DNA of 25,652 bases from a virus. A program made the translations under genes and the position numbers. This document shows positions 9,860-20,462 of this stretch, piece after piece. The DNA lies in IMG/VR virus record IMGVR_UViG_3300013285_000069, positions 1 to 25,652 of that record; one strand, 5' to 3'. The notes beneath the pieces are model-generated. The model was not told the origin of the DNA. It did no database searches and saw nothing but the letters and a program-made list of their open reading frames with translations. How positions within the stretch are numbered: the first letter of the stretch is position 1; each line of letters opens with the position of its first letter.

Positions 9860-9890
9860 TTGACTATAGATGAGCAATCAAGTATAAATA
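9860..9890 (+). promoter_or_regulatory. Hybrid early/late promoter of gp32
   Basis: TTGACT (9860-9865) is followed by 17 bp and TATAAA (9883-9888), a good sigma70 promoter. The same -10 is the first six bases of a perfect T4 late consensus TATAAATA (9883-9890). One site could thus serve host polymerase early and the phage sliding-clamp/late-sigma system later. Predicted start near 9896, leaving a leader of about 52 nt before the gp32 ATG. Confidence 0.65.
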
Positions 9891-18406: not shown

Positions 18407-18480
18407 GGGGGATTAGCTCATTTGGGTAGAGCGGTAGCTTTGCAAGCTTCAGGCGAACGGTTCGAATCCGTTATCTTCCA
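18407..18480 (+). tRNA. tRNA-Ala (anticodon UGC)
   Basis: Acceptor GGGGGAT (18407-18413) pairs with ATCTTCC (18473-18479), including G3-U70, the alanine identity wobble, and G4-U69. D stem GCTC/GAGC with a GGG-containing loop, anticodon loop TTTGCAA (18439-18445) giving TGC, T stem AACGG/CCGTT with loop TTCGAAT, discriminator A. One T-T mismatch sits in the anticodon stem (18435/18449). The 3' CCA is not encoded. It follows the small early operon and precedes the endonuclease control hairpin. Confidence 0.88.
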
Positions 18481-18489
18481 CATAAGCGG

Positions 18490-18536
18490 CTCCGTTGTAT
18501 AAATAGTAATGTCAATAAAACTATTATACAACGGAG
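18490..18536 (+). promoter_or_regulatory. RBS-sequestering hairpin with embedded late promoter
   Basis: Left arm 18490-18507 (CTCCGTTGTATAAATAGT) pairs with right arm 18520-18536 (ACTATTATACAACGGAG) over 17 bp with one bulged A. The right arm ends in ACGGAG, the Shine-Dalgarno for the TTG start at 18546 (9-nt spacing). The left arm contains a perfect TATAAATA (18498-18505), whose start point at about 18511 falls in the loop. Read-through (early) RNA would fold and hide the site; late RNA lacks the left arm and is translatable. This is the arrangement known for T4 e, soc and I-TevI. Confidence 0.85.
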
Positions 18537-18545
18537 TGCAGCGTT

Positions 18546-19187
18546 TTGTTTTACACTATCTATAAAATAACAAATTTAATAAACAACAAATTTTATATAG
18601 GAAAACATCAAACTAATAATGTTGATGATGGGTATATGGGTTCTGGTAAGTTAATTATAGAAGCTATTAAAAAATATGGGGTAGATAATTTCAAGAAAGA
18701 TATACTTTATATATTTGATAACGAAAAAGACATGAATAACGCAGAGAAAGATTTAGTTATTTTATCTGAAAATAGTTACAATCTATGTCCCGGTGGTCGA
18801 GGTGGTTTTGGATACATTAATAAAAATATCGATTTACAACAAAGAAATAGAGATATAAACTCTCGTAAAAATTATAATGATCCAGTATTACGACAACGAC
18901 TTTCTGAAGGACAAAAAAGAGCACTTCCTTTTAGAAAACCCCCAGTGATATCGGATGAATCGAGATCTAAAAAACTTGCACCGTTAAAAAGAGGCAATAC
19001 CCCTGAAGCAATTATAAAGAAAAAAGAAACTTGGAAGAAAAATAATAGAGGCATTGGTAAAAATAATTCTCAATTTGGTACTTGTTGGGTTACGAATGAA
19101 ATAGAAAATAAGAAAATTAAAAAAGAAGAAATTGATTTCTATTTAAATAACGGGTATAATAAAGGTAGAAAGATTAAACATCAATGA
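18546..19187 (+). CDS. GIY-YIG homing endonuclease (Seg/I-TevI-like)
   Basis: 213 aa from a TTG start, fixed by ACGGAG in the hairpin arm. N-terminal nuclease domain (1-85): YTIY (3-6) and FYIG (16-19) are the GIY and YIG elements, GSGKLIIEAIKKYG with KYGVDNFKKDIL is the usual third block, and the Glu in NNAEKDL (about 67) is the metal ligand. The linker and C-terminal DNA-binding part (NSQFGTCWVTNEIENKKIKK and the final YNKGRK) match the repeats seen in phage Seg-like free-standing endonucleases. Codon use is more AT-rich than in neighbours (many AAA/ATA/AAT), consistent with a mobile gene. It cuts an allele lacking it and spreads by recombination. Overlaps the next gene by ATGA. Confidence 0.9.
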   Translation: MFYTIYKITNLINNKFYIGKHQTNNVDDGYMGSGKLIIEAIKKYGVDNFKKDILYIFDNEKDMNNAEKDLVILSENSYNLCPGGRGGFGYINKNIDLQQRNRDINSRKNYNDPVLRQRLSEGQKRALPFRKPPVISDESRSKKLAPLKRGNTPEAIIKKKETWKKNNRGIGKNNSQFGTCWVTNEIENKKIKKEEIDFYLNNGYNKGRKIKHQ

Positions 19188-19879
19188 AAAAGATTAAAGT
19201 ATTCTGGAATATTAACGAACTTGCAAACTGGGATAAAGTATACAATCAACAGTTTGAATGTATAGTAAAAAGTGGACTCATGGATGAAGCATCAGATGTA
19301 ATCCTTATGGGTAACGGAAGACAGAGAACATTTAAGCCATTAATTGATGCACATCCAGAATATCCACAAATGGCATATGCCAGTGTATGCGACAGTGCTG
19401 CTCTTTGGGAATATCCTGGATTAATGTTTATGCAGCAGCAGGCTAAAGAAGCAGAAGAGCCATTCCATATCTGTTATATTCACCTTAAGGGACTTACACG
19501 TTGGGGCAATCCTAATGTTGAAGATTGGAAGGCTTGGTTAAACTGGTGCGTTATTGAACGCTGGCGTGATAACGTGGCAGCTCTACAAACACATGATACT
19601 TCAGGTCCAAACTGGGAATCTGAGCCATGGCCGCATCACTCCAGCAACTTCTGGTGGGCTAATAGCGATTATGTTGCTAAGTTAGAACCACTGGTACATC
19701 CACATAAACTAGTAACTCACAATGCCACACAGTTTAAAGGACATGGGCATTGGCGATTTGACCATGAAGCATGGTTAGGCAGTGGAAACCCAAATGTTTT
19801 TGAAATTGCTCGTAGTTTTTCAGAAGGCGGAATGCATTATACACAGACATGGCCAAGAGAACTTTATAGAAATGACTGA
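19184..19879 (+). CDS. Glycosyltransferase-like protein (HLKG family)
   Basis: 231 aa. MKKIKVFWNINELANWDKVY start; CYIHLKGLTRWG (about 104-115), a WLNWCVIERWRDNVAALQ helix, then GPNWESEPWPHHSSNFWWAN and SDYVAKLEPL, and C-terminal FDHEAWLGSGNPNVFEI. The pattern H-x-KG, then P-H-(S/F)S-(G/N)-NFWWA-(R/S/N)-SDY occurs in a family of putative glycosyltransferases common in marine bacteria and phages. No enzyme assay is known to me. It follows a mobile endonuclease by ATGA overlap and precedes an oxygenase by an 8-bp overlap; it may glycosylate an LPS sugar or a virion protein. Family recall, not proven. Confidence 0.6.
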   Translation: MKKIKVFWNINELANWDKVYNQQFECIVKSGLMDEASDVILMGNGRQRTFKPLIDAHPEYPQMAYASVCDSAALWEYPGLMFMQQQAKEAEEPFHICYIHLKGLTRWGNPNVEDWKAWLNWCVIERWRDNVAALQTHDTSGPNWESEPWPHHSSNFWWANSDYVAKLEPLVHPHKLVTHNATQFKGHGHWRFDHEAWLGSGNPNVFEIARSFSEGGMHYTQTWPRELYRND

Positions 19880-20462
19880 CATACCCGTTAGAAAGTTTCT
19901 ATTAGAATCTTTTTATACAATTGGTCCACTTCTAAATCACAGCGAAATAAAACAACAAGTATTAAATTCGTTAGATCACGCACAAATTGACACATTGGTT
20001 ATGCGTGATTCTTACTACGATGACAGTGTTAGTAAGCTTGATTGGAGTCAAGCACAAGATTTTACAAGACCTTGGGTAAAACTTCTTAAGCCACATATCG
20101 AAGATTATCTAAATAAACTTGCAGTTGCATTGGGATACCAAAGTTCAATAATAGATGAATTTTGGTTTCAGCAATATGTGAATGGTAATTCACATGGATG
20201 GCATACACATGGCAGTAACTTTACCGGTGTATATTATCTAGAATTAGATAACAATAGTCCTAAAACAGAAATTATTGAACCCAGTAAACAAAATAAGAAA
20301 ATTACGTTAGACGTTAAAGAAGGAGACATTGTAATGTTTCCTAGCTATACAATACATCGTGCTCCTGTTATCAAAAATGATATTAGGAAAACTATTGTTA
20401 GTTTTAACTTTATATTAAATTTAATTGATCCACTAACTCTAAATGGTATTAATCAATTATGA
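19872..20462 (+). CDS. 2OG-Fe(II) oxygenase
   Basis: 196 aa from ATG 19872 (overlap ATGACTGA with the upstream gene). Double-stranded beta-helix core: EFWFQQYVNGNSHGWHTHGS, then FTGVYYLELD, and GDIVMFPSYTIHRAPVI...RKTIVSFNF. Predicted iron ligands H111, H113 and H162, and 2OG-binding R172; the second ligand position is His rather than Asp/Glu (HxH), as I recall in phage relatives of the putative 2OG-Fe(II) oxygenase family (PF13759-like). It would hydroxylate an unknown substrate. The stop overlaps the convergent tail-fibre chaperone gene by 6 bp. Confidence 0.8.
   Translation: MTDIPVRKFLLESFYTIGPLLNHSEIKQQVLNSLDHAQIDTLVMRDSYYDDSVSKLDWSQAQDFTRPWVKLLKPHIEDYLNKLAVALGYQSSIIDEFWFQQYVNGNSHGWHTHGSNFTGVYYLELDNNSPKTEIIEPSKQNKKITLDVKEGDIVMFPSYTIHRAPVIKNDIRKTIVSFNFILNLIDPLTLNGINQL

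Follow-up and report, generated by a model that had tools for sequence, protein, structure and literature searches.

The window, by which we mean the whole stretch of DNA that was analysed, is a viral sequence record 25,652 bases long, from an uncultured phage related to T4. Within it a hairpin lies between a tRNA-Ala gene and a gene encoding a GIY-YIG homing endonuclease. The features of the locus are as follows.

18407-18481, + strand: tRNA-Ala (tgc), directly 5' of the hairpin, located with ARAGORN.
18490-18536, + strand: hairpin of 17 bp with one bulged A (18503) and a loop of 12 nt (18508-18519); fold z -4.5, with covariation in relatives.
18498-18505, + strand: TATAAATA of the left arm, predicted to be a late promoter of the gp55 type; its TAAATAG is invariant in 15/15 diverged leaders, and the motif is enriched upstream of relatives' genes and precedes late genes in contig G002.
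18511, + strand: predicted late transcription start, in the loop, placed by T4 spacing (PMC2988020).
18530-18536, + strand: ribosome binding site AACGGAG at the end of the right arm, predicted to be fully paired in a long transcript and largely open in a short one.
18546-19187, + strand: GIY-YIG homing endonuclease gene, 213 aa, TTG start, SegB-like (PHROG 314; match to RB59 segB; dN/dS against locus L002).

The hairpin begins 8 nt past the end of the tRNA. Its left arm, CTCCGTTGTATAAATAGT, extends from 18490 to 18507 and its right arm from 18520 to 18536, with segments of 13 and four base pairs making up the 17. The bulged A at 18503 is itself one base of the left-arm TATAAATA. The paired arms and the bulge, the ribosome site that ends the right arm, the TATAAATA in the left arm, and the TTG at 18546, 9 nt past the GGAG, are all as an earlier sequence-only reading of this DNA had described them. 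That reading had also proposed RNA folding as a check, and the hairpin is calculated to fold with -24.9 kcal/mol (z = -4.5), a stability that was equalled by 0/200 shuffled sequences. No other inverted repeat of at least 12 nt with 100% complementarity and arms no more than 60 nt apart occurs in the window. In T4, the 8-bp TATA box of a late promoter begins at -13 (PMC2988020). By that spacing TATAAATA would span -13 to -6, and the predicted +1 is G18511, which lies in the loop, where a late start had been claimed.

The endonuclease matches PHROG 314, "homing endonuclease," with an E-value of 6.8e-38, and it aligns with the SegB protein of the T4-type phage RB59 over 99% coverage at 40% identity (E 8e-31). 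Its Pfam SegE_GIY-YIG score of 24.9 bits falls just below the 25-bit cut-off. The protein is thus a full-length, SegB-related member of the GIY-YIG group, and it is encoded in a tRNA region: tRNA-Ala lies 64 nt upstream, and many relatives sit in tRNA arrays. Both traits are those of a SegB-type free-standing GIY-YIG endonuclease, and the gene is assigned as such, with DNA cutting and self-inheritance as putative activities. The closely similar protein from locus L002 is 90% identical, with a dN of 0.047 and a dS of 0.315. Despite that dS, the 60 bases preceding the gene are identical at 60/60 positions in the two sequences. The low dN and the unchanged leader suggest that selection acts on the protein and, still more tightly, on the leader. 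Downstream, at 19782-20462, lies a 2OG-Fe(II) oxygenase-like open reading frame (PHROG 81).

Scans of viral and genome contigs yielded ∼220 loci, of which 186 places were analysed once near-copies had been removed. The relatives keep the same layout, namely a tRNA, ∼60 nt, the hairpin, and the endonuclease. In the clade to which the window belongs (A1), 60 members have a tRNA no more than 120 nt upstream, and the hairpin is present in 46 of these, 44 found by the automatic rule and two by eye (L197 and L228). Among A1 members with no detected tRNA the corresponding count is 5/31 (Fisher p 3e-8). The more distant clade, A2, shows the hairpin in 48/66 members. Some tRNA-adjacent relatives are without it, and many members of the window's clade that lack the hairpin still carry the motif ahead of the gene, among them L019, L063, and L224. 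Of the 48 hairpins of the TATAAATA type, 33 have their predicted start in the loop, eight have it in the left arm, and seven have it in the right arm. The same hairpin type occurs in the isolates RB59, one Salmonella phage, and two Acinetobacter phages; the leader is different in two of the six isolates examined, one a Vibrio phage and the other a Klebsiella phage.

The proximity of the hairpin to the tRNA raises the question of whether it serves that RNA instead, as a 3' processing signal, a stabiliser, or a terminator of its transcript. The distance of only 8 nt and the tight clustering of the tRNA-to-gene spacing among the relatives would fit such a role. Among 121 other open reading frames that immediately follow a tRNA at these loci, however, strong leader structure is found in only 14. 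Several of these, as read from their sequences, resemble HNH proteins and have a leader that contains a late-type motif. The hairpin therefore goes with the gene and not with the tRNA. Service to the tRNA also fails to predict a conserved promoter core and a paired ribosome site or AUG, and we regard it as very unlikely. A terminator specifically was rejected, as no U-run follows the stem. The HNH-like reading frames behind tRNAs that have hairpin leaders with late-promoter-like motifs are those at L006, L013, L017, L261, and L331. At L222 the reading frame after tRNA-Val is, judging from its sequence, a probable tail-collar gene, and its hairpin leader contains AATAAATA. The distribution suggests a design used repeatedly for genes that lie behind a tRNA and are to be silent early.

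For the analysis of covariation, 15 diverged leaders were aligned with sequence as the only guide. In this alignment 88% of the cells pair, and changes on both sides are observed in 11 of the 18 pairs. The covariation score is 0.463, as compared to 0.146 in shuffles (0/500 as high), and it is no greater than 0.144 when the arms are slid against one another. A second subgroup, in which the AUG itself is located in the right arm, scores 0.356 versus 0.173, and RNAalifold recovers essentially the same stem. In alignment A3 the rows for L217 and L236 are off by one base; they were kept, and they count against the structure. With covariation in two independent alignments, a hairpin arisen by chance is rejected, its probability being close to nil. 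Covariation between the arms had been named beforehand as a test of the switch, and it is found in both arms while the promoter core stays fixed.

Within 89 stems, the rows of which are not fully independent, G·U mismatches outnumber A·C mismatches by 42 to 7 under a scoring that favoured neither. Such a bias is expected from selection on the sense-strand RNA. It bears on a reading of the inverted repeat as a DNA palindrome, that is, an operator at which the endonuclease or another protein would repress transcription. There is a precedent in I-TevI, which autorepresses at an operator overlapping its own late promoter (PMC2988022), but the stems here change freely in sequence, with compensating changes, and a preference for G·U over A·C is not expected of a DNA palindrome. 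That asymmetry disfavours a palindrome as the sole explanation, which we consider highly improbable; operator function could be an additional layer on the switch.

The TAAATAG core is invariant in 15/15 of the diverged leaders, the unpaired A included, and is thus held by something other than pairing. Might the hairpin control translation, with TATAAATA being an AT-rich sequence that arose by chance and is no promoter? The number of copies in the window is indeed not above chance, with three seen and 3.1 expected, and what is unusual about the motif at this locus is its placement, not its frequency. A chance motif, on the other hand, would not be retained in every one of 15 diverged hairpins, nor would phages with another upstream code be expected to carry that code at the same position, as they do. 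We therefore judge this explanation to be even less probable than the operator. Another TATAAATA in the window, at 9883-9890, lies 3 nt before the ATG of a gp32-like gene, too close to give a leadered late mRNA from that ATG.

Further evidence on the motif comes from larger genomes. Contig G002, the 141-kb contig of locus L003, encodes gp55 (E 1e-57). In it ATAAATA lies upstream of 24 open reading frames versus 2.0 expected, including those for the tail sheath, tail tube, major capsid, scaffold, gp14-like, and baseplate proteins. In 80 pooled contigs with a UvsX related to that of the window, ATAAATA is the top upstream 7-mer, with 87 occurrences as compared to 4.1 expected. By terminase comparison, the closest isolate is Pseudomonas phage PA5oct, at 54% identity. 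It encodes a relative of gp55, the T4-type late sigma factor (E 5.6e-83), and ATAAATA sites precede its sheath and tube genes. The description of the source as a phage very different from T4 is accordingly softened, in that its late transcription need not be that unlike T4's. The gp55 gene is not within the 25.7-kb window; it is present in PA5oct, G002, and five further contigs of more than 130 kb with the same hairpin type. Among contigs of that size, which may be incomplete, a clear gp55 match is found in 6/6 of those having TATAAATA hairpins.

In the distant clade, ATATTTAT(A) takes the place of TATAAATA in many hairpins. ATATTTAT is the sense-strand upstream motif of genome G016, with 46 occurrences versus 2.7 expected. 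It is likewise enriched in G011 (25 vs. 2.2) and G013 (31 vs. 2.2), and it was found again in G037, G012, G014, G036, and G042; G012 shows both motifs, and a near form, CTATTTATA, occurs at L277 in G036. The enrichment in G011 comes partly from other homing endonucleases, and thus the argument rests on G016 and the later genomes. In the contigs of more than 130 kb with the other code, a clear gp55 match was obtained in 0/7, one having a weak match (E 1.8e-4), and these contigs may be incomplete. In two cases the code departs from the best-hit grouping of the enzyme. The endonuclease of G042 has its best hit in the window's clade, yet the other code is used in its hairpin and in its genome alike. 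The reverse holds for L261, where the endonuclease has its best hit in the distant clade, yet the hairpin contains TATAAATA, and the genome has gp55 and ATAAATA sites. The type of motif in the hairpin follows the upstream code of its own genome and the presence of gp55. ATATTTAT precedes one head protease gene and one tail sheath gene. It also precedes nucleotide-metabolism genes, including in G016, and for this reason the promoter candidate is not called strictly late.

The motif ATATTTATA is a strong sense-strand upstream motif in large phages without clear gp55, namely G011, G013, G016, and other large contigs (loci L152-L168, L179-L186, and L383-L392), and it often lies just 4-6 nt before the annotated ATG. 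We consider it a candidate for an undescribed phage promoter class, no description having been found in the literature searched. In G011 (L152-L159), GTATCTTTGTA is a second enriched upstream motif alongside ATATTTATA.

These observations are best explained by an expression switch of the kind known for T4 segB, a reading to which we assign a probability of roughly 0.86. Transcripts reading through from the tRNA gene would contain both arms, the ribosome site would be paired, and the endonuclease would not be translated. At late times, RNA polymerase of the gp55 type would initiate at TATAAATA within the left arm. The resulting mRNA, beginning in the loop at ∼18511 and lacking the left arm, would leave the ribosome site open. 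A stable stem covers the ribosome site, and the promoter, as predicted from its sequence, is so placed that late mRNA would lose the left arm. For naked RNA at 37 C, opening 18530-18548 is predicted to cost 20-22 kcal/mol in a transcript from the tRNA or from just after it, and 6.3 kcal/mol in one from 18511. The enzyme is thus probably made only from late transcripts. The T4-type late switch put forward in the sequence-only reading is in this way supported by the covariation, by the motif upstream of relatives' genes, and by the modelled opening upon loss of the left arm.

Similar arrangements have been described. In a 2010 review, segB, I-TevI, I-TevII, I-TevIII, and Aeh1 mobE are listed as controlled by hairpins with a predicted late promoter (PMC2988022). 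T4 segB, located between tRNA-Ile and tRNA-Arg, shares the hairpin and carries CATAAATA in its left arm. It resembles the window's gene in encoding a related GIY-YIG enzyme, in its location in a tRNA cluster, in the left-arm motif, and in the predicted late promoter (PMC2988022). It differs in that the segB AUG is at the stem, whereas in the window it is the ribosome site that the stem contains, with the TTG lying outside; the phage lineage is another one, and the stem sequences are unrelated. In I-TevI, I-TevII, I-TevIII, and Aeh1 mobE, the ribosome site is likewise hidden by a hairpin and freed by a nearby late promoter (PMC2988022), but the intron-borne I-Tev genes and mobE, an HNH gene, are not beside tRNAs. 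T4 gene e and gene 49 also have an inhibitory leader structure, and for gene e late promoters lie within the stretch that encodes the left strand (PMC3014915); neither is a GIY-YIG-family homing endonuclease gene. The precedents first offered for the window were e, soc, and I-TevI; the closest is instead segB, the related GIY-YIG gene of the T4 tRNA cluster. Where reuse of the arrangement had been left as either independent or inherited, this relative with the same hairpin makes inheritance most likely for the GIY-YIG genes, the window's included, with separate reuse in the HNH-like ones.

Because the segB design is already in the review (PMC2988022), the kind of switch in the window is not new. 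New here are its breadth, the family-wide covariation, and the two putative promoter codes, the latter two being undescribed as far as the literature searched extends. We think it reasonably likely that a re-codable switch operates across the whole class of tRNA-array phage homing endonucleases. Its geometry would be kept while the embedded promoter is rewritten to the code of the host phage, TATAAATA with gp55 and ATATTTATA in large phages without clear gp55, and unrelated HNH-like genes behind tRNAs would have converged on the same design.

Two codes within one hairpin design provide a natural control for the embedded motif being a promoter, and they also point to an undescribed promoter class. 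What was one T4 curiosity may become a testable rule, by which RNA structure would silence the DNA-cutting genes of tRNA arrays up to the arrival of the late polymerase. Enzymes of the SegB type help tRNA regions to be inherited and, in T6, anti-defence genes to be amplified (PMC13096335), and thus the timing of their expression would bear on the spread of tRNA arrays and on escape from host defences.
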